From Ruania rhizosphaerae (GTDB lineage Bacteria > Actinomycetota > Actinomycetes > Actinomycetales > Beutenbergiaceae), in NCBI RefSeq assembly GCF_009805705.1, contig NZ_VSMB01000009.1:62001-126000 (forward strand): 64,000 nucleotides of DNA. The letters run 5' to 3'. The notes under the pieces are model-generated. The model worked only from the letters and a program-made list of their open reading frames with translations. It was not told the origin of the DNA and ran no database searches. This document shows, in pieces, positions 10,828 to 26,941 of this stretch (position 1 is the first letter of the stretch; every line of letters starts with the position of its first letter). The translations under genes were made by a program, and so were the position numbers.

Positions 10828-11565
10828 TCAGGCTGAGGGCAGCAGCCGCGGCTGCCACCGCTCCTCCTGCGCCACCCCGTCGGCAGCGCGCACCACCCGA
10901 TAGGCGGCCACGTCGCGACGTTCGGCGACCACCTCGGCCAGGTCGATGCCCTCGTAGACCAGGCCCACGCCGTCGTCGGTGCAGTGTGTCTCGCCCAGGA
11001 CCCCGCTCCCCACCAGTTCGTGCACGAGCGGCCGACGGCGGGACTCGCTGTCGTAGTGCACACCGTTGGCGTAGGGCAACAGGCCCAGGCCGGTGGTGAC
11101 CGGCCGCAGACCGGGGCCAAAGGAGTCGGTGGTCCCGCCGGTGAACCAACAGATCGAACCCGCGCTGACTCCGGCGAGCACCACGCCGGCCTCCCACACA
11201 CGGCGGAAGATCTCGTCGAGGCCGTGCACGCGCCAGACCGCGAGTAGGTTGGCGACCGACCCGCCGTCCACCCAGACCACGTCTTGTGCGAGCAGGTGCG
11301 CTTCGATGTCGGCCACGTTCGGCATCGTGAACAGCCGCAGGGCGCTGACGTCGAAGCCTGCCACCCGGCCTGCCTCGTGCATCGATGCGATCCGCCAGTC
11401 CTGATCGCCGCTGGCCGTGCCCAGATAGGTCAGGCGCGGTGTACGCCCGTGCACGCCGGAGCGGTCAACGGCGTGGTGCACGAGGGCGTTGAACTCCAGC
11501 CGACTGCGCTGCCCGGGGCGGTAGCCGCCGGAGGTGGCAACGATGGTGGGCACGGATGCGGGCAC
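10828..11565 (-). CDS. Peptidase E / cyanophycinase-like S51 family peptidase
   Basis: 245 residues. The nucleophile elbow GVSAGSICWF (about residues 131-140) carries the predicted catalytic serine. The preceding VVWVDGGSVANLL strand is the other conserved S51 signature. S51 enzymes such as peptidase E release N-terminal Asp from dipeptides, using a Ser-His-Glu/Asp arrangement on a glutamine-amidotransferase-like fold. There is no signal peptide, so it is probably cytoplasmic. It sits upstream of the 680-residue membrane protein gene on the same strand, but a 106-base gap gives no strong operon evidence. Confidence 0.85.
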   Translation of the reverse strand: MPASVPTIVATSGGYRPGQRSRLEFNALVHHAVDRSGVHGRTPRLTYLGTASGDQDWRIASMHEAGRVAGFDVSALRLFTMPNVADIEAHLLAQDVVWVDGGSVANLLAVWRVHGLDEIFRRVWEAGVVLAGVSAGSICWFTGGTTDSFGPGLRPVTTGLGLLPYANGVHYDSESRRRPLVHELVGSGVLGETHCTDDGVGLVYEGIDLAEVVAERRDVAAYRVVRAADGVAQEERWQPRLLPSA

Positions 11566-12662: not shown

Positions 12663-14207
12663 ATGGCGAGCTTCATCGACCGGGTCGTGCTGCACGTGCG
12701 CGGCGGTGACGGCGGGCACGGCTGTGCCTCCGTCCGGCGAGAGAAGTTCAAGCCGCTCGGCGGCCCGGACGGAGCCAACGGTGGCTCCGGGGGCGACGTC
12801 GTGCTCGTGGTCGACCCGCAGGTCACCACCCTGCTCGACTACCACCACCTCCCGCACCGGCGTGCCGAGAACGGTACGCAGGGCATGGGGGACATGCGCA
12901 CGGGCAAGATCGGGCAAGCTCTCGAGCTCCCGGTTCCCGACGGCACCGTCGTCAAGACCACCGATGGCCAGGTGCTCGCCGATCTCGTGGGTGCCGGCAC
13001 GCGTTTCATTGCCGCCGAGGGTGGCCGCGGCGGGCTGGGTAACGCCGCGCTCGCTTCACCCAAGCGGAAGGCACCGGGCTTCGCCCTGCTGGGTGAGCCG
13101 GGGCGTGAACGCGACCTCGTCCTCGAGCTCAAGACAGTCGCCGATGTCGCCCTGGTGGGGTACCCCAGCGCCGGCAAGTCCTCGTTGATCGCCGCGATCT
13201 CGGCCGCCCGCCCGAAGATCGCCGAGTACCCCTTCACCACCCTGGTCCCCAACCTCGGTGTGGTCCAGGCCGGATCGCAACGCTTCACCGTGGCCGATGT
13301 GCCGGGGCTGATCCCGGGCGCGAGCGAAGGCAAGGGCCTGGGGCTGCAGTTCCTGCGCCACATCGAACGCTGCGCGGTGATCGTGCACGTACTCGACTGC
13401 GCCACTCTCGAACCCGGCCGGGATCCGATCAGCGACCTCGACGTGATCGAGGCTGAACTCGCGGCCTACCAGGCTGACCTCGACGTCGGCGACGGGCATG
13501 TGCCGCTCGCCGAGCGGCCCCGGCTGGTGGTGCTCAACAAGATCGACGTTCCCGAAGCCCGCGACCTCGCCGAGATGGTCCGCCCCGATCTGGAGCAGCG
13601 CGGGCTACAGGTGATGGAGATCTCGACGGCGTCCCATGAGGGTTTGCGCCCGCTCACCTTCGCCCTGGCCGAGCTGGTCACGGCTGCCCGTGCGGCGGCG
13701 CCTCAGCCCGAACCCACGCCCACCGTGCTGCGGCCGCGCGCCGTGGACGACGCCGGCTTCACCGTGACGCGCCGTCAGAGCGATCACGTGTACTACCTCG
13801 TGCGCGGGGACAAGCCCGAGCGATGGGTGCGCCAGACCGACTTCGCCAACGACGAGGCCGTCGGCTACCTCGCAGACCGTCTCGCCCGGCTCGGGGTGGA
13901 GGAAGAACTCTTCCGGGCCGGCGCTCAGGCGGGCGACGAGGTCGTGATCGGGGACGGACCTGACGGCGTCGTCTTCGACTGGGAGCCGACCATGGCCGTC
14001 GGTGCCGAGCTGCTCGCCGGCCCGCGCGGCAGCGACCTGCGCCTCGAGGAGCACCACCGGCCCACCCGGGCGGAGAAGCGGGAGGCGTTCCACAACAAGA
14101 TGGACGCCAAGGCCGCTGCGCGGGACGAGTTGTGGGCCGAAGGCGAGGACTCCGCACCCGTGCTCTGGGAGGAGCCCGACGAGGAGGATGACGGAGGGCG
14201 CAGGTGA
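12663..14207 (+). CDS. obgE: GTPase Obg
   Basis: 514 residues from ATG 12663, chosen because AAGGGGAAG precedes it and [20 protein letters not shown] is the canonical N-terminus. Domain order: glycine-rich Obg fold (1-160), G domain with P-loop GYPSAGKSS (about 165-173), [20 protein letters not shown] and NKID near 292, then the OCT domain (about 360-440) and an acidic tail typical of actinobacteria. Obg is an essential ribosome-assembly and stress-linked GTPase. Its stop overlaps the proB start (GTGA). Confidence 0.97.
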
Positions 14208-15346
14208 GCCCCGCCGTCGTGGACCGTTCCGCCTTTGCCGACCCGGTACGTGCGGCACGCATCGTGGTCAAGGTGGGGTCGTCGTCGTTGACCGACGACG
14301 AGGGGCGCCTCGATGTGGGGCGCCTGACCGCCCTGGTGGATGTGCTCGCCGCGCGGATCGCCGACGGCGGACAGGTCACCCTGGTCTCCTCGGGCGCCAT
14401 CGCCTCGGCACTGACCGTTCTGGGGCTGACCGGCCGGCCGAAGGATCTGGCCACGGCGCAGGCCGCGGCGAGTGTGGGCCAGGGACTGCTGATGGCCCAC
14501 TACACGCGAGCTTTCGCCGCACACGGGCGCCACGTCGGGCAGGTGCTGCTCACCGTCGAGGACGTCGTGCGTCAGGGGCACTACCGCAACGCTCAGCGCG
14601 CGCTCAACCGCCTGCTCGATCTCGGCGTGGTGCCCATCGTGAACGAGAACGACACCGTGGCCACCCATGAGATCCGGTTCGGCGACAACGACCGGGTGGC
14701 CGCGCTGGTGGCACATCTGACCCACGCCGACGCGTTGCTGCTGCTCAGCGACGTCGACGCCCTCTACGACGGTCCGCCCACCCGCCCCGGATCACGGCGC
14801 ATCGCCCGGGTCGAGAGCCGAGCGGACCTGGCCGGGGTGGAGATCTCCGCGCCCGGAAGTGTTGTGGGGACCGGCGGGATGGTCACCAAGGTCGAGGCGG
14901 CCACGATCGCCACCGGGTCGGGTGTTCCGGTGGTGCTCACCTCTGCCGCCAGGGCCGCCGCCGCACTCGCTGGTGAGGACGTCGGAACCTGGTTCGCGCC
15001 CACCGGGCGGCGAATCCAGACCCGCCGCCTATGGCTCGCCCACGCTGCCCGCACCCGCGGACGGGTGGTCATCGATGCCGGAGCGGTCCGGGCGATCACC
15101 ACCGGGAAGAAGTCGCTGCTCGCTGCCGGAGTGGTCGGAGTCGAGGGCAGCTTCGAGGCAGGTGACCCGATCGAGGTCGCCGGCCCCGAGGGCGTGGTCG
15201 TGGCACGTGGGCTGGTGGGCTACTCGGCCGAGGAACTGCCGGACCGGATGGGGCGGCGCTCGGAGGAGCTCGCGCGATCGCACGGCGACGCCTCGGTGCG
15301 CGCCGTGGTGCACCGCGATGATCTCGTCCAGGTGCGGCCGCGCTGA
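14204..15346 (+). CDS. proB: Glutamate 5-kinase
   Basis: 380 residues starting at GTG 14204, overlapping obgE by 4 bases. The amino-acid kinase domain begins with [14 protein letters not shown] and has the substrate loop [26 protein letters not shown]-terminal PUA domain (about 285-370) follows. It catalyses the first committed step of proline synthesis, ATP-dependent phosphorylation of glutamate. The next enzyme, proA, usually adjacent in related genomes, is 8 kb away here, separated by the protease/sigma cassette, the sulfur-regulated unit and the MFS gene. Confidence 0.97.
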
Positions 15347-15418
15347 GACTTTCTGCGAAGCGGATGTATCACGCCAGCGGTTGTGCGCACCTGAACAAGC
15401 GTGAAGAGTACTCCCATC

Positions 15419-15991
15419 ATGGATCGAACAGCGCAGCAGACGGTGTGGGCCACCGCCGCTGAGCACTACCGCCGATGGCGGGCGGGCTCACCCACGGCGA
15501 TGGACGAGCTTGTCCGCTGCCTGACCCCCGTGCTCTGGCAAGTGGTACGAGCCCAGCGGCTCGACGCCGAGACTGCCTCCGACGTCGTGCAGACCACCTG
15601 GCTCGCACTGGTGCGCCGGCCCGATGCAGTCCGCGAGCCCGAGGCCGTCGGAAGCTGGTTGGTGACCACGGCGCGGCGAGAGGCCTGGCGCGTGGTCAAG
15701 GCCGGTGCACGGACCGAGCTCATGGAGGAACTGCCCGAGACCGGTGAAGGTCATTCCGCGGAGCAGGAAGCCACGACCCGATGGCTGGACCGGTTGCTGT
15801 GGCGGTCGGTCTCCCAGCTCTCGCAGCGGTGCCAGCGGCTGCTGCGGGTGGCGGCCTTCCTGGACCGGCCGAACTACCGGAATCTGGCCGGTGAGCTGGA
15901 CATGCCGGTCGGGAGCATCGGGCCCACCCGGGCACGGTGCCTGGCACGACTACGGACATTGCTGGCAGCAGAGGGGGTTGACCATGCGTGA
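15419..15991 (+). CDS. ECF-type RNA polymerase sigma factor
   Basis: 190 residues from ATG 15419; a GAAGAG element lies about 9 bases upstream, and an upstream GTG at 15401 is possible. Region 2 is visible at about 25-85 (ETASDVVQTTWLALVRR, then AVGSWLVTTARREAWRVVK). Region 4 is at about 125-180 and ends in an HTH (YRNLAGELDMPVGSIGPTRARCLARL). It should redirect RNA polymerase to a small regulon. It overlaps the next small gene by 8 bases and starts a run of four co-directional genes ending in two proteases, so it probably controls or is controlled by that module. Confidence 0.9.
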   Translation: MDRTAQQTVWATAAEHYRRWRAGSPTAMDELVRCLTPVLWQVVRAQRLDAETASDVVQTTWLALVRRPDAVREPEAVGSWLVTTARREAWRVVKAGARTELMEELPETGEGHSAEQEATTRWLDRLLWRSVSQLSQRCQRLLRVAAFLDRPNYRNLAGELDMPVGSIGPTRARCLARLRTLLAAEGVDHA

Positions 15992-16445
15992 GGGTGGCGA
16001 GGGACGGACGCCGGTGAGGTGGCCGGCCGAGGATGAGACGATGCGGGCCCTGAAGGAGATGTGGGAACGCGCAGACCCGGTGCCGGAGGGACTGGTGGAT
16101 GCCCTCATCGCAGCAGTCGCTGCCGAGGACCTCGATGCTGAGCTACTCACGCTGCAGCCGGCGCAGCTGGCCGACGTGCGCGGCGAGGCAGCCCAGGTGC
16201 TGGAGTTCACCTCCGACAGCCTCACGCTCGTGGTGCGGTTGGGGCAGGACGACGACGGCTCCCGCCGGGTGGACGGCTGGGCCGAGGGTATCCGCGAGGT
16301 GGCGCTCGTGAACGAGGAATGGTCCCGGACGGCGCGGGTGAGCGCCGCGGGCCGGTTCGAGTTCGACAAGGTGCCCTCCGGCCCGGTACGACTACGACTA
16401 CGTTCCGACGAAGGTGCGTACCTGACTCCAGGATTCGAGGTATGA
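15984..16445 (+). CDS. Small acidic protein between sigma factor and protease (function unknown)
   Basis: 153 residues. It begins inside the sigma-factor gene (ATG 15984; sigma stop 15989-15991) and ends one base before the protease ATG region, so all three are likely coupled. The N-terminal half is helical and acidic (MRALKEMWERADPVPEGLVD). The C-terminal half is beta-rich, ending in a repeat-like RVSAAGRFEFDKVPSGPVRL that resembles a carboxypeptidase-regulatory/transthyretin-like strand pattern. No transmembrane helix or zinc motif is visible, so it is not an obvious membrane or ZAS-type anti-sigma factor. A sigma-binding or protease-substrate role is inference from position. Confidence 0.8.
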   Translation: MREGGEGRTPVRWPAEDETMRALKEMWERADPVPEGLVDALIAAVAAEDLDAELLTLQPAQLADVRGEAAQVLEFTSDSLTLVVRLGQDDDGSRRVDGWAEGIREVALVNEEWSRTARVSAAGRFEFDKVPSGPVRLRLRSDEGAYLTPGFEV

Positions 16446-16446
16446 G

Positions 16447-18012
16447 ATGACCGACTGGAAACCACGAGCGCTCTGGGCGCGTGTGCGCGCCTGCGGGCCC
16501 GACCTGGACTCCGGGTGGTTCGGCACGACCTACCTCGCCGACTCGTTGCTCTGCCCGCTGGTGCCCGGGGTGGAGGAGGACCTGTGGGTCCTGGAGGAGG
16601 TCCTGGCCGAGCGACAGTGGCAGCTTGAGATCGGCGATCCGGTGCTGTTCGTGCCGGAGGAGGTGAGCGCCGAAGCAGGGGTGACAGGCGCGGTCGAGAC
16701 CTTCCGGAAGGCATACGCCGGCGGCGATCGGGACGGCGCCCTGGACGCGCTGCGAGCGCTGTGGAAGCGCGTCTTCGCAGGCAAGCAGTACGCGGGGCCG
16801 AAGGGGGAGCCGATCCCGGTCGGAGTGATCGGGCTGCGGCTGGTGCGGCGTCCGGGTGCCCCAGTGGACGGACCCGATGCGGCCCTGGTGCTGCGGGCCG
16901 TGCAGGAGCGGCGGGAAAAGCCTGCTGCCCTGGGGCTCGATCACCTGCTCAGTCTGAGCCCGTTGATCGAGACGAACCCGCTGATCGAGACCAATCCCTT
17001 GATTGAGACGAACCCGCTGATCGAGACGAATCCTCTCATTGAGACCAACCCCGCGGCGGGCTACGCGCGGCCCGGACTCGGGGGACGGCAGCCGGTGAGT
17101 GTGCCGGTCACGCCCCCGGCCCGCCGCCCTGAGGCCTCCCGCCGGGTCACGGTCGCGGTGCTGGACACCGGCTGTGGTGACCATGAGTGGCTCGACGACG
17201 TCGTCTCGGTACCGCAGCTGAACGGGGGGCCCATCGGCCGGCACGGTTCACCGGACCCAGAGCGCGATCCGGATCCAGGCCCCACGATCACCGGTCTCGC
17301 CGGCCGTGCCGTCGGTCATGGAACATTCATCGCCGGACTGGTGCGCCAGGTGGCCCCGGACGCGGACCTGCTCGCCGTGCGGGTCTGCGACGGTGACGGG
17401 ATCGTCACCGAGCTCGAGCTCATCGGGGTGTTGGCGCAGCTCGCCGAATACCAGCGCACGAGCGGGCCGATCGACGTGCTCAACCTGTCCCTCAGCTACA
17501 CTCACGAGCGCCCAGAGGATGTCGCCTACAGCACGGCGCTGTATGGGGTGCTGCACCAGTTGCGGGCGGACGGCACCACCGTGGTCGCCTCGGCCGGCAA
17601 CGCCGCCACCACGCGGCCGCACTTCCCCGCCGCGTTCACCCTCTCCCCGGACCCGTCGGTGGCGCCACTGATCTCCGTGGGCGCGCGGAACCCGAACGGG
17701 ACCATTGCGGCCTTCAGCAACCAAGGAACCTGGATCACCTGCTGGGAGGATGGTGCAGCGCTGGTGAGCACCAGTCCACGGCTGGATTCCGGACGTCAGC
17801 CCAGCGTGGAGACCGGGCCGGGGAGCGAGACCCTCGACCTGGACGACTTCCGCGGCGGCTTCGCCGTCTGGAGCGGCACGTCCTTCGCCGCGCCACTGCT
17901 CGCCGCACGAGTGGCGCAGGTGCTGGAACCAAGGATTCCCCCGGCGAAGGACGTGCCGGACCGGCTCCGGGCTGCCCAACTCGCTCTGCGATCGGTGATG
18001 GACGGTCGATGA
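16447..18012 (+). CDS. Cytoplasmic subtilisin-like (S8) serine protease with PLIETN repeats
   Basis: 521 residues, with no signal peptide or membrane helix, unusual for an S8 enzyme. The first 160 residues have no recognised domain. Five PLIETN repeats (about 172-201) form a linker. The protease domain follows with Asp240 (VAVLDTGCG), His291 (GHGTFIAG), the oxyanion asparagine Asn385 (ASAGNAATT) and Ser479 (SGTSFAAPL), so the full catalytic set is present. The gene starts two bases after the small-protein stop and ends four bases before the TPR-CHAT gene. The context suggests intracellular limited proteolysis within one regulatory module rather than secretion. Confidence 0.93.
   Translation: MTDWKPRALWARVRACGPDLDSGWFGTTYLADSLLCPLVPGVEEDLWVLEEVLAERQWQLEIGDPVLFVPEEVSAEAGVTGAVETFRKAYAGGDRDGALDALRALWKRVFAGKQYAGPKGEPIPVGVIGLRLVRRPGAPVDGPDAALVLRAVQERREKPAALGLDHLLSLSPLIETNPLIETNPLIETNPLIETNPLIETNPAAGYARPGLGGRQPVSVPVTPPARRPEASRRVTVAVLDTGCGDHEWLDDVVSVPQLNGGPIGRHGSPDPERDPDPGPTITGLAGRAVGHGTFIAGLVRQVAPDADLLAVRVCDGDGIVTELELIGVLAQLAEYQRTSGPIDVLNLSLSYTHERPEDVAYSTALYGVLHQLRADGTTVVASAGNAATTRPHFPAAFTLSPDPSVAPLISVGARNPNGTIAAFSNQGTWITCWEDGAALVSTSPRLDSGRQPSVETGPGSETLDLDDFRGGFAVWSGTSFAAPLLAARVAQVLEPRIPPAKDVPDRLRAAQLALRSVMDGR
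16960..17049 (+). repeat. Five 18-bp units encoding PLIETN hexapeptides
   Basis: Five consecutive units translate identically to PLIETN but differ from each other at synonymous positions (for example TTG/CTG/CTC for Leu, ATC/ATT for Ile, AAC/AAT for Asn). All visible differences between copies are synonymous. Confidence 0.95.
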
Positions 18013-18016
18013 CACG

Positions 18017-20353
18017 GTGACAGAGCCGCTCGCCGGTGGCGTGCCCGATGATGCCGCCGCGCTTCATCTGGAGGCCCGGCGCGTGGCCAACGCCGGCGAT
18101 CTGCCCGGTGCGGAGGCTCTGCTGCACCGGGCCCGCCGCTGCGCCACCGACATCGAGGACATCTGCCGCATCGAGGGCACGCTCGCCTTCGTTGAGGCCG
18201 AACAAGGGCGGGCCGAAGAGGGGCTGGCGCGGTGCGAGGCCGCTCTCGATCGCGCCGATCGTGGAACATTGGCCCATGCACTCCTCGCGGGCCAGCTCGG
18301 GACGATCCGCTTCGTCCGTGGAGAGATCGCTGCGGCCATCGAGCTGTTCGGCACCGCCCTCGAGGTTTTGACGGGTGAGGAGCGGTGCCGCATGCTCCTC
18401 AACCGGGGCACGGCGCATTTGACCGTCGCCGACTATGAGGCCGCTCGGCATGACTTCGACGAGGGTGCGCGCGGCCCCAACCCGGTTTCGGCGGCCAAGT
18501 GTGCGCACAACCTCGGCTACCTCTACCTGCTGCGCGGGGAGTTGGTGGAGGCACTGCGCTGGATGGATCGTGCTCGTCGCGACCTGGCTGAGCTCGGTCT
18601 CTCGGTGACGACCGCGATTGACATCGACCGGTCCGAAGCACTGGACGCCGCCGGGCTCCGTGGTGAAGCAGTGGCGCTGCTGCGCGACGTGGCCGCGCGC
18701 CTGCGTGGCAGCGGGCTCTGGCGGCTGCAGGCAGATGTCGATCTGCACCTGGCCCGCCAACTCCGTGACGACGAGGCTCTGGAAGCCGCCGAGCGTGCTG
18801 TGCGCCGCAATCGTCAGCACGGTAACGCCGTCGATGCAGACGAGGCGCGCGCGGTGGTGCTGCTGGTTCGCGGCCGCGGCACGAGGCCACCGAGTGCGCA
18901 CAGCCTGGAGAGGCTCGCTGACCGGCTGGAGCAGGCGGGGAGGCGGCACACCGCAGCTGCACTGCGGATGCGCGCCGCCGGCCTGCGCGGGACCTCGCCC
19001 CGTCTCCCGGGGGAGGAGGAGCCGCTGACCGTTCGGCTGCTCGCCGGTGAGGTCGCGGCGGAGGTGGCGCTGCGGGCAGGCGACACGGATGCGGCTCTGA
19101 GCGCGGCATCGGCCGCGATCGACGAGCTCGACCGGTGGCAGCGCGGTATCGGCAGCCTGGAGCTGCAGTCGGTGAGCAGGCGGTTGGGCGCGCGGGTGAT
19201 CCGGCTCGGTCAGCAGGCAGCGCTGCTCAGTGGCGACGCGCAGCACCTGCTCACCTGGTCCGAACGAGCCCGCGAGCTCGTTGCCCGGGTCCCCGCCACC
19301 CGGCCCCCTGAGGAGCTGGCGGACCTCCTGGCCGATCTACGCCGCCTCGGCCCTGACGGCGACCCGGCCGAGCGTTTGCAGTTGGTGACGCAGATCCGTC
19401 AGGGCCGCTGGCTGGCTGCAGCGGAGCTGCCCGCCGACGCCCCGGTGACGGTGCAGGCTGTGCGCGAGCGGTCGGCAAGAGTACGGGCCGGACGCTATGT
19501 CACGCTGATGGAGATCGAGGGCCGGCTGATCGCCCTCACCCTGGGCGACCGCGAGGACATCCTCGACCTGGGTGCCTGGGGCGAGATGGATCAGCTCCTC
19601 GGGGGCCTCAGCGCGGACCTGACGATGGCGGCACAGCTCGCCGCACCGGTGGTGCGGGCCGCACTCCAGGAGCGGATCGAGGGCTTGGACCAGATACTCG
19701 CACCGGCGCTCCAGGGGGCAGGCTCGCTGACGATCACCGCACCGGCAGTGATGGCCCGGATGCCCTGGGGGCAGCTGCCGAGCACGGTGGGCGTCCCGGT
19801 GACTGTGCCGACCTCGGCGAGCGCGTGGCTGCGCCAGACCCCTGCCGGGCCGATCCGCAGTGTCGGGGTCGTCGTCGGGCCCGGTACCCGCACCGGGAGC
19901 GCCGAGGCGGACCTGGTCCGCCAGGGATGGCACACGGTCACCGTGGGGGAGCGTTGCCACGACGCCCAGACTCTCGCCGCGAACGTGGATCTGCTGCACG
20001 TGAGCGCCCACGGGCAGGACCGGGAGGCGCACCCGCTGTTCGCGTCCCTGCAACTGGCGGACGGGGACCTGTTCGGGCACGACGTCGAGCTCTTCGGCCA
20101 GGTGCCGCCGGTGGTGATCCTCTCCGCGTGCGGGGCCGCTGGTGGCTCGCTCGGGATGGCGCGGGCGTGGCTGCACGCGGGCGCCCGGTCGGTGGTGGCG
20201 GCGCCGGCCGACATCGCCGAGACGGCCGCCCTGGACCGGTTCGGGCAGTTGCATGCCTTGCTCGCCCGCGGCAGCACTCCGGCCGAGGCGGTTGCGAACG
20301 CCTTCGGCGGCGAGGCGCTCGACTGTGCCGTGCAGTGCTACGGCGCGGGCTGA
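18017..20353 (+). CDS. TPR-CHAT caspase-like protease
   Basis: 778 residues from GTG 18017. The first 480 residues are alpha-helical TPR-like repeats (for example NLGYLYLLRGELVEALRWMD). The C-terminal region is a CHAT domain with the cysteine-protease dyad His665 in LLHVSAHGQD and Cys705 in VVILSACGAAGGS, so it appears catalytically intact. CHAT domains are separase/caspase-related peptidases; TPR-CHAT proteins act as signal-activated proteases in several prokaryotic immunity systems, including type III-E CRISPR. It ends the sigma/small protein/S8 protease operon. Its activator and substrate are unknown. Confidence 0.92.
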   Translation: MTEPLAGGVPDDAAALHLEARRVANAGDLPGAEALLHRARRCATDIEDICRIEGTLAFVEAEQGRAEEGLARCEAALDRADRGTLAHALLAGQLGTIRFVRGEIAAAIELFGTALEVLTGEERCRMLLNRGTAHLTVADYEAARHDFDEGARGPNPVSAAKCAHNLGYLYLLRGELVEALRWMDRARRDLAELGLSVTTAIDIDRSEALDAAGLRGEAVALLRDVAARLRGSGLWRLQADVDLHLARQLRDDEALEAAERAVRRNRQHGNAVDADEARAVVLLVRGRGTRPPSAHSLERLADRLEQAGRRHTAAALRMRAAGLRGTSPRLPGEEEPLTVRLLAGEVAAEVALRAGDTDAALSAASAAIDELDRWQRGIGSLELQSVSRRLGARVIRLGQQAALLSGDAQHLLTWSERARELVARVPATRPPEELADLLADLRRLGPDGDPAERLQLVTQIRQGRWLAAAELPADAPVTVQAVRERSARVRAGRYVTLMEIEGRLIALTLGDREDILDLGAWGEMDQLLGGLSADLTMAAQLAAPVVRAALQERIEGLDQILAPALQGAGSLTITAPAVMARMPWGQLPSTVGVPVTVPTSASAWLRQTPAGPIRSVGVVVGPGTRTGSAEADLVRQGWHTVTVGERCHDAQTLAANVDLLHVSAHGQDREAHPLFASLQLADGDLFGHDVELFGQVPPVVILSACGAAGGSLGMARAWLHAGARSVVAAPADIAETAALDRFGQLHALLARGSTPAEAVANAFGGEALDCAVQCYGAG

Positions 20354-23306: not shown

Positions 23307-23377
23307 GGATTCGACTGACCGGACCGACACGGGTGCGTCACGCGGGGAGGAATGGTGCCTCACCATGCCGTATCCGA

Positions 23378-23478
23378 GTCAGTCCGGTCAGCGGGCGGGC
23401 GAGAGGACGCATCTGGGCGCGTCGTAGCTGCGTCAATCCGGTCAGCGGGTGGGCACCGGAGAACATCTGGGCACCCGT
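23378..23478 (+). repeat. Imperfect direct repeat upstream of proA
   Basis: Two copies (about 23378-23422 and 23432-23478) share TCCGGTCAGCGGG-(C/T)-GGGC and, further on, CATCTGGGC. A third, inverted copy of the 10-base core is at 23315-23324. They lie between the MFS gene and proA and may be operator sites or a small repeat family. Confidence 0.6.
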
Positions 23479-23489
23479 ATCCTGGAGTG

Positions 23490-24788
23490 ATGAGCGTGGA
23501 CACCGCAGCACAGGTCACCGACGAGCAGGCGAGCACCGGGGTCCGGGAACTGGCGCAGGCGGCGAAGATCGCCTCCCGCGCACTGCGCAGTGCCACCACC
23601 GCCGCCAAGAACGAGGCGCTGTACGCCCTCGCCGACGCACTGGTCGCTGACGCCGATCGCATCCTGGCCGCCAACGTGGTCGACGTGGAGCGCGAGAGTG
23701 CCGCCGGGATGAATGCGGGACTGGTGGACCGGCTCCGGCTCACCGATGAGCGCATCGCCGGGATCGCTGACGCACTCCGCGAGCTGGCTGCACTCCCTGA
23801 CCCGGTGGGGGAGGTCGTGCGTGGTCAGACCCTGCCGAATGGGTTGACTGTGCGCCAGGTACGGGTGCCGATGGGCGTTGTCGGGATGATCTACGAGGCC
23901 CGGCCGAATGTGACGGTGGACGCCGCAGGACTAGCCCTCAAGAGCGGCAACGCGGTGCTCCTGCGCGGTGGCTCAGCGGCCGCGAGCAGCAACGAGACCA
24001 TCGTGGCTGTGCTGGGAGAAGCACTTGAACGGGTCGGGTTGCCACGTGAGCTCATCCAGTCCGTCGATGCCTACGGCCGCCCTGGTGCGCGGGCCCTGAT
24101 GCGTGCCCGCGGACTGGTGGACGTGCTCATCCCGCGCGGCGGCGCCGGCCTCATCCAGACCGTGGTGGCCGAATCCCAGGTGCCGGTGATCGAGACCGGC
24201 GTGGGCAACTGCCACATCTACGTGGACGCCACTGCCGAGGTGGACCAGGCCATCCAGATCCTGCTCAACGCCAAGACCCAGCGGGTCGGGGTGTGCAACG
24301 CCGTCGAGACGCTGCTCGTGCACGCCGACGCCGCTGAGACCTTCCTCCCCGCGGCGCTCGCGGCGCTGGCCCAGGCAGGGGTACGCCTGCACACCGATGA
24401 GACCTCAGCCACTCACGCTCCCTCGTCTGCGGACGTCGTTCCTGCCACGGACGAGGACTGGGCGACCGAGTACCTGAGCATGGACATCGCGGTACGGGTG
24501 GTGCCGGACCTGGACGCCGCGCTCGAACACATCCGCACCTGGTCCTCCGGGCACACCGAAGCCATCCTCAGCAACGACGTCGCGGCCGTGCGCCGATTCA
24601 CCAGTGAATTGGATTCGGCGGCGCTGCTGGTCAACGCCTCCACCCGGTTCACCGACGGTGGCCAGCTGGGCCTCGGTGCCGAGATCGGGATCTCGACCCA
24701 GAAGTTGCACGCCCGGGGCCCGATGGGTTTGGCCGAGCTGACGACGACCACGTGGATCGTGCAGGGCGAGGGACACGTGCGGCCATGA
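23490..24788 (+). CDS. proA: Glutamate-5-semialdehyde dehydrogenase (gamma-glutamyl phosphate reductase)
   Basis: 432 residues from ATG 23490; GTG 23496 has a better-spaced GGAG and may be the true start. The upstream open frame has no ProA similarity. Aldehyde dehydrogenase superfamily features include [21 protein letters not shown] and the catalytic-cysteine region [12 protein letters not shown]. The C-terminal [15 protein letters not shown] is characteristic. It reduces glutamyl 5-phosphate with NADPH in proline synthesis. Its partner proB lies at 14204, separated by unrelated genes, so the two are probably no longer co-transcribed. Confidence 0.97.

Positions 24789-25694: not shown

Positions 25695-26941
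<1,247 letters not shown>

Follow-up and report, generated by a model that had tools for sequence, protein, structure and literature searches.

In a 64,000-nucleotide stretch of the Ruania rhizosphaerae genome (hereafter the window), four genes on the forward strand encode an extracytoplasmic function (ECF) sigma factor (SIG), a small protein (SMALL), a subtilisin-like protease (S8) and a protease that joins a tetratricopeptide repeat (TPR) region to a CHAT domain (CHAT). An earlier sequence-only reading had placed these open reading frames (ORFs) at positions 15419-20353 as a closely packed group, as ORF reading and Pfam searches bear out, and had taken them for an undescribed system. The module itself matches a known gene context, that of ECF54; the elements that appear to be new are a tandem peptide array inside S8 and a lock-and-key relation between this array and the TPR groove of TPR-CHAT. 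Residues of the array unit covary with residues of the groove, suggesting that S8 carries a docking ligand for its partner protease.

A tandem peptide array in the S8 protease

The subtilisin-like protease (16447..18012, + strand) matches Pfam Peptidase_S8 (E-value 4.6e-22), and its catalytic triad D240, H291 and S479, the serine of which the sequence-only reading had rightly named in a protease that it took for intact, is retained in 58/58 aligned proteins. In the AlphaFold2 model (mean predicted local distance difference test score (pLDDT) 78.1), an N-terminal domain is followed by a low-confidence stretch at residues 175-218 and then by the catalytic domain. The N-terminal domain (residues 27-169; 16525..16953, +) is propeptide-like: it runs beta-alpha-beta, helical insert, beta-alpha-beta, with the strand and helix order of subtilisin propeptides, and Foldseek aligned about 500 columns of S8 with PCSK9 and ProN-Tk-SP, at modest template modelling (TM) scores of 0.37-0.40 and large root-mean-square deviations. 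The Pfam propeptide family I9 had no match in S8. Judged from the model, residues 27-169 may be a propeptide; subtilisins autoprocess directly after theirs.

Behind this domain, residues 172-202 (16960..17052, +) form a tandem array of five identical PLIETN units (16960-17049) and a sixth proline, which Tandem Repeats Finder placed at 16959-17051 with a 77% DNA match. Most of the array falls within the 175-218 stretch, which is mostly below pLDDT 50. In the aligned S8 relatives, the array occupies a constant site between the propeptide-like and catalytic domains, ahead of the catalytic Asp, with a conserved LDH motif on one side and Y-x-x-PG-x-GGR-x-PV on the other.

We sampled 206 S8 sequences scoring above 250 bits and removed 5 lacking the anchor motif, 23 duplicates in catalytic sequence and 1 masked sequence (L281), which left 177 distinct proteins. 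An array score of at least 10 was reached by 158 of them, 142 with a period of 6, with 2-12 copies, and 139 of the 158 arrays were perfect; for one (L203), the script took the wrong stretch, the true array being three copies of SPMING with one change. Among controls, shuffled regions reached a score of 8 in 0/1780 cases (maximum 5.5) and S8 proteases of the other type in 0/42 (maximum 4). Clear short arrays or spaced cores were also present in proteins scoring below 10 (L033, L040, L177, L207, L211, L218, L284, L285 and L294); one further protein of the 19 below this score (L270) was unreadable, its anchor being misplaced. The arrays comprise about 105 distinct units, which differ between genomes and are mostly identical within one. 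Open-licence literature on CHAT, subtilisins, sigma factors, TPR and repeats, judged by titles and the starts of abstracts, yielded no description of such an array.

The identical peptides are encoded by diverged codons. All 33 codon differences among the window units are synonymous, and over all arrays the counts are 3265 synonymous versus 143 non-synonymous; array detection favours identical peptides, which lowers the second count without creating the first. In 94 perfect arrays, including two duplicate pairs, the mean synonymous difference between units was 0.35, where codons drawn at random from the gene gave 0.40. Because this is close to the random-codon level, the copies are old and not the product of fresh slippage, and the pattern indicates that unit identity is under selection. 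Comparison of L185, with T at the fourth residue of the unit, and L192, with S, indicates further that units change together while keeping their own codons: all three units have switched, and 16 of the 17 other codons are shared unit by unit. That a change affects all units at once is partly built in, given that a perfect pair forces it; the codon patterns carry the real information. A different history is suggested by the window and its close relative L022, where the array differs in 10/30 residues and 45% of shared codons and the rest of the gene in 15/491 residues and 7%, which looks like replacement or exchange of the whole array as a block, unlike L185 and L192. In the arrays of L044, L211, L283 and L287, the unit core is kept while the spacers diverge.

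Covariation of the array unit with the TPR groove

The TPR-CHAT protease (18017..20353, +) matches the Pfam CHAT (E-value 6.6e-10) and TPR families, and its active site, likewise read earlier as intact, is conserved, with H661, H665 and C705, the last also named in that reading, present in 17/17 aligned proteins. The best solved sequence matches of its TPR region are TPR superhelices, including the OGT-type structures 7yeh and 1w3b.

For covariation analysis, we used 137 loci with a six-residue, proline-anchored unit, 135 of which have both S8 and CHAT, excluding other periods and units without proline. Unit positions, numbered from the proline, were compared with 1506 columns drawn from the four proteins, and traits simulated on the protein tree served as the null. 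Tree-free mutual information had pointed to the TPR region but was inflated by relatedness, and it was replaced by tree nulls, decoys and contrasts.

The positions covarying with the array lie in the TPR region, at CHAT residues 24-201 (18086..18619, +). P+1 was linked to CHAT 201, with CHAT 187, 197, 198 and 200 close to it, P+2 to CHAT 99 and 132, P+3 to CHAT 125, 158 and 161, and P+4 to CHAT 24, 54 and 55. In the first run, P+1 versus CHAT 201 gave z 11.0, a value reached in 0/100 simulated nulls, whose maximum averaged 3.7. Because real decoy columns outscore the simulated null, we relied on decoys at equal depth, giving the units and 160 decoy columns 100 simulations each. Under this control, P+1 versus CHAT 201 gave z 9.2-9.7 in three re-runs, above 160/160 decoys (highest 8.6, mean 5.3), and P+3 at CHAT 125, 158 and 161 gave z 7.9-8.4, values of 8 or more being reached by 2/160 decoys.

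The covarying residues are complementary in charge and size. In independent contrasts, the charge of P+3 correlated negatively with that of CHAT 125 (r -0.70) and CHAT 161 (r -0.60), the first and second of the tested columns, and only 1/150,837 background pairs was as negative as -0.70. P+3 and CHAT 161 carry opposite charges in 63/133 loci and like charges in 0, with at least one side neutral in 70, and parsimony counts about 21 changes of P+3 charge over the tree. At P+1 and CHAT 201, F is paired with C or S (50/64), Y with G (22/36) and L with V or I (10/11). When the top five CHAT columns were taken for each of P+1 to P+4, 9/20 fell in a 40-column TPR groove set out of 765 columns (hypergeometric 1.3e-7), built on TPR positions 2, 5, 9, 12, 13, 33 and 34, known to contact ligands; decoys placed 0.33 columns per five in this set (n=120), and at least two in 8/120.

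Several observations weigh against a docking array. P+2 and P+4 taken alone are ordinary (z 5.7-6.6, with 37/160 decoys reaching 6), and of the top columns of P+5 0/5 fell in the groove set, with many scattered matches, for which reason P+5 was not used. In shallower controls, run with 40 and 30 simulations and noisier in their maxima, decoys rose as high as 10.5 (n=120) against 9.6 for P+1, and in the first decoy control the highest of 45 decoys was 9.0. The groove set was built on TPR ligand positions from the literature after a first look at the results, and CHAT 201 itself lies outside it. The six-residue spacing looks too short for adjacent units to sit on separate TPR domains simultaneously, so docking gives no reason for having more than one copy. 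Finally, S8 of L027-L030, L035, L262, L263 and L265 has only a degenerate pair, and S8 of L056 has no array. Weighing these points against the covariation of unit residues with the TPR groove, we conclude that the array is likely to be a ligand that docks in the groove of TPR-CHAT.

SIG and SMALL

SIG (15419..15991, +; alternative start GTG at 15401) is an ECF sigma factor, ECF54-like by context, with a match to Pfam Sigma70_r2 (E-value 1.5e-8) and one above cut-off to NCBIfam sigma70-ECF (48.9 bits, cut-off 42.9, residues 27-181); in Pfam, region 2 was matched and region 4 was not. SMALL (15984..16445, +), of 153 residues, has an ATG that overlaps the SIG stop. Its AlphaFold2 model (mean pLDDT 87.6) has two N-terminal helices (14-30 and 37-50) and a beta-sandwich with strands between residues 56 and 147. 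Neither a Foldseek match to this fold at E<=0.001 nor a PDB relative of the sequence below E 0.06 was found, and a match to Pfam CarboxypepD_reg (E-value 0.016) stayed below cut-off.

The main evidence that pairs the two proteins is adjacency: SIG lies directly upstream of SMALL on the same strand in 97/100 class-wide loci, which makes SMALL a probable constant and dedicated, direct partner of SIG. Covariation between them adds a suggestive element. In contrasts over 255 loci, the most negative of 10,404 charge pairs joins SIG R66, in sigma region 2, with SMALL E48, in the second helix (r -0.35; opposite charges in 140/252 loci, like charges in 2). This is offset by the most positive pair being equally large (r +0.37), and a contact between R66 and E48 is therefore suggestive only. 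In the 135-locus set, SIG versus the SMALL beta-domain gave 3/5040 pairs under -0.5, the highest rate among the protein pairs compared; the strongest pair of that set, SIG9-SMALL101 (r -0.72), was absent from the top pairs in 255 loci, which also speaks against a SIG-SMALL contact. SMALL may act as an inhibitor of SIG.

Distribution of the module

The four families occur together outside close relatives, across Actinomycetes, as a genome survey of co-occurrence and gene order showed. A CHAT protein search matched 22/39 genomes, own included. Within the genus of the window, the gene was present in 4/8 genomes, again counting the own genome, and missing from the other 4/8, so the module is patchy. 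All four genes were found in 16/20 fetched family or order loci, in one of which (L038) S8 is on the opposite strand; over the 20 loci, the main gene orders were SIG-SMALL-S8-CHAT and S8-SIG-SMALL-CHAT. A scan with the S8 alignment identified all four genes in 76/80 named loci, those that ranked best among 520 confirmed stretches, in genera that include Microbacterium, Nocardioides, Cellulomonas and Klenkia. At a profile E<=1e-60, S8 was found in 58/396 genomes of the window's order and 88/391 of the order of G411.

A SMALL profile matched 117/394 genomes of the class, in 58/138 genera. The class-wide set was made of 100 of these matches, all at E ~1e-11 or better, excluding weaker and earlier-collected matches and G087 at a contig end. 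Both proteases lay within 6 kb of SIG-SMALL in 64/100 loci, CHAT alone in 8, S8 alone in 4 and neither in 24, counts that include some short contigs; the 24 loci with neither protease are a point against the switch proposed below, in which all four proteins take part. SIG-SMALL pairs with no CHAT or S8 match nearby include those of L065-L068, L070, L072, L074 and L076-L082. Possible effectors beside protease-less pairs were sought by listing ORFs in 12 loci and scanning the long ORFs of six with Pfam, and 4/6 gave nothing. The CoA ligase/ATP-grasp and DNA gyrase A genes found in the two others look like ordinary neighbours, and several of the long ORFs are probably antisense.

A promoter-like motif upstream of the operon

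Word enrichment in 136 upstream regions identified a spaced motif, TGTATCA-N16-CTCCT, that precedes whichever operon gene comes first. With duplicate loci included, it was present upstream of 61/129 SIG-first and 13/41 S8-first array-type loci and of 2/74 others. In the window, TGTATCA-N16-CACCT lies upstream of SIG (15365..15392, +) and is the only exact match. The searched form had one match in the own 4.43 Mb genome, as had a reversed control pattern, so the genome count is uninformative and the position is what informs. A natural reading is that SIG uses this motif and thereby autoregulates its own operon.

In Microbacterium (L152 at 11035-11170, and also L147, L153, L185 and L192), a second copy of the motif stands about 21 nt past the CHAT stop, followed by about 130 nt that are conserved as DNA, with no kept frame by eye; this stretch is possibly a small RNA that SIG controls as well. 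Rfam returned only three miRNA matches, all sub-threshold, at 11201-11261 of L152. That this second copy drives ORFs was rejected, as most ORFs there look spurious and the sequence after the motif looks non-coding. In two Nocardioides-type loci (L061 near 3962 on the - strand and L183 near 10829 on the + strand), a further copy of the motif precedes a protein of 98-105 residues that resembles a protease inhibitor by eye. Near loci of the other type (L116, L119, L120, L124, L125 and L134), it lies upstream of proteins of 346-893 residues, which by eye have ATPase-like N-termini and look like LuxR-family regulators.

Genomic neighbourhood

The module had been placed between the core genes proB and proA, and both identifications (14204-15346 and 23352-24788) are backed by NCBIfam models; the interval also holds at least two other genes, for a luciferase-like protein and a major facilitator superfamily (MFS) protein. 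Upstream are obg and proB, and downstream follow the luciferase-like gene, the MFS transporter, proA and nadD. CHAT has a single match in the genome, whose contig 43 contains the window. PADLOC anti-phage models gave no strong system match, the weak ones being subtilase (6.3e-5), IetS (0.047) and BovA (6.8e-4). Read by eye, its N-terminus suggests that S8 is cytoplasmic. Elsewhere in the window, positions 26038-26092 form a perfect 6-bp tandem repeat, GCCTGA, of 9.2 copies.

Relation to known systems

Among solved structures, the CHAT domain is matched best by a 'CHAT domain-containing protein' (8rot, E 1.5e-9), and it also matches 'CHAT domain protein' chains in 8d9f and 7x8a (E ~7e-6), which we take to be Csx29. 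In the SAVED-CHAT systems of type III CRISPR, a CHAT protease acts within a proteolytic cascade that connects to a sigma factor. Unlike in those cascades, the partner protease here is a subtilisin, and no SAVED domain was found in the CHAT protein by Pfam at E<=1. RRNPP receptors such as Rap/Phr use a TPR groove to read a short peptide whose production involves subtilisin-type proteases. Here, by contrast, the array is inside the protease, no secretion signal is apparent by eye, and the TPR region is fused to CHAT rather than to a helix-turn-helix or phosphatase domain. OGT-type TPR superhelices resemble the TPR region of CHAT in sequence and differ in function and partners.

In type III-E CRISPR, inhibition of CASP-sigma by Csx30 lasts until Cas7-11-Csx29 processes the inhibitor, and CASP-sigma motifs occur within its own locus, according to the excerpted text of PMC10028731. 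The module shares with that system a TPR-CHAT protease with a Cys-His pair, a sigma factor and a third protein, and differs in adding the second protease S8 and the peptide array. The analogy with type III-E drawn by the sequence-only reading is thus reasonable, as was its expectation of co-occurrence; its claim of an undescribed system does not stand, because the published ECF54 context matches. According to the excerpt of PMC8999054, this context conserves carboxypeptidase-, subtilase- and CHAT-domain proteins, from which proteolytic control without an anti-sigma factor was proposed, and the table lists a representative from Geodermatophilus. Klenkia, of the same family, has two loci (L207 and L218) with the full module. 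As in ECF54, an ECF sigma factor lies near a subtilase, a CHAT protein and a carboxypeptidase-type protein, if SMALL, with its sub-threshold CarboxypepD_reg match, is the latter. The array, its pairing with the TPR groove, the SIG-SMALL pairing and the promoter motif are not mentioned in that excerpt. Two further articles, PMC8195603 and PMC7159879, name in their excerpted text other caspase or peptidase systems and not this module.

A proposed switch and its alternatives

The explanation that we favour, and consider reasonably probable as a whole, is a self-regulating switch of the ECF54 type whose two proteases are paired in a species-specific way. We hypothesize the following cascade. In the S8 zymogen, a short linear motif, P-[F/Y/L/V/H]-x-x-[T/S/G/P], would be repeated several times along the disordered linker, and the concave TPR groove of TPR-CHAT would take up one repeat at a time. 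P+1 would then occupy a pocket near CHAT 197-201, with P+3 in charge contact with CHAT 125 and 161. Such docking would keep TPR-CHAT beside the junction of the S8 propeptide and catalytic domain. Upon a trigger, CHAT may cleave the S8 linker and unleash S8, or S8 may activate CHAT; one or the other would then destroy SMALL, taken to keep SIG inactive, and free SIG would transcribe its own operon from TGTATCA-N16-CTCCT, amplifying the response. The sequences themselves show the four-gene module with its intact catalytic residues, the array and the selection on its units, their covariation with the groove, the adjacency of SIG and SMALL and the upstream motif; the binding of units to the groove, the assignment of cuts to one protease or the other, the hold of SMALL on SIG, the use of the motif by SIG, and the trigger and output of the switch are inferred.

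The model of the sequence-only reading, in which SMALL is an anti-sigma factor that CHAT or S8 cleaves, in parallel to Csx30 and Csx29, and in which S8 and CHAT need no contact, is plausible, if short of probable. SIG-SMALL adjacency and the CASP precedent speak for it, as do, suggestively, the charge swaps between SIG66 and SMALL48; the array and its covariation with the TPR groove are left unexplained. What it says of SMALL agrees with the species-specific switch, so the probabilities given to the two overlap.

In a peptide-messenger model, S8 would cut its own linker between units, and the short peptides set free in the cytosol would bind in the TPR groove to activate or silence CHAT; this seems to us unlikely without being negligible. 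RRNPP receptors offer a precedent, with the difference that the precursor here is within its own processing protease. In its favour are the sameness of the units inside most genomes, which resembles precursors holding a peptide in many copies, and the place of the array right behind a propeptide-like domain, the point at which subtilisins process themselves; covariation suits a free and a tethered peptide equally. Against it, the units of L044, L211 and L283 share a core but have differing spacers, so the peptides released would not be identical.

That the proteases degrade the sigma factor itself, with no anti-sigma factor, appears improbable, although it is the proposal reported in the excerpt of PMC8999054. 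SMALL follows SIG in nearly all class-wide loci, even where no protease is nearby, which fits a dedicated sigma partner better, and the printed carboxypeptidase-domain protein, if it is SMALL, as we read it, has here a match, below cut-off, to a regulatory-like domain. We give very little weight to a tripwire in which foreign, for instance phage, proteases cut the repeated site and free S8: unit diversity and the linker position would suit it, but bait should follow the enemies and not a neighbour's TPR groove, and the charge complementarity at CHAT 125 and 161 would have no role. A neutral repeat born of replication slippage, as the tandem DNA repeat, the variable copy number of 2-12 and the one array swapped as a block between close relatives might suggest, is scarcely credible, given that identical peptides are encoded by codons close to saturation, that the L185 and L192 units all changed with unit-specific codons kept, and that the array covaries with another protein.

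Implications

Under the species-specific switch that we favour, the linker of a subtilisin would carry the ligand array of a caspase-like partner, peptide and groove shifting jointly from lineage to lineage, and there may be about a hundred self-recognising, mutually exclusive protease pairs, an extension that we put forward tentatively and regard as doubtful at present. In the excerpt of PMC8999054, ECF54 is a gene neighbourhood with proposed proteolysis, to which the pairing described here adds a concrete, testable contact between proteases, with residues that can be swapped. The arrays also illustrate clearly how repeats can change in concert although their codons remain diverged. If binding is as predicted, about a hundred natural pairs of short peptide and TPR, possibly orthogonal, would be available and useful as binding reagents, and if S8 also releases peptides, this would be intracellular peptide signalling in which the messenger precursor is its own processing enzyme. 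The module would join bacterial caspase-like proteases, subtilisins and sigma factors in a single switch.

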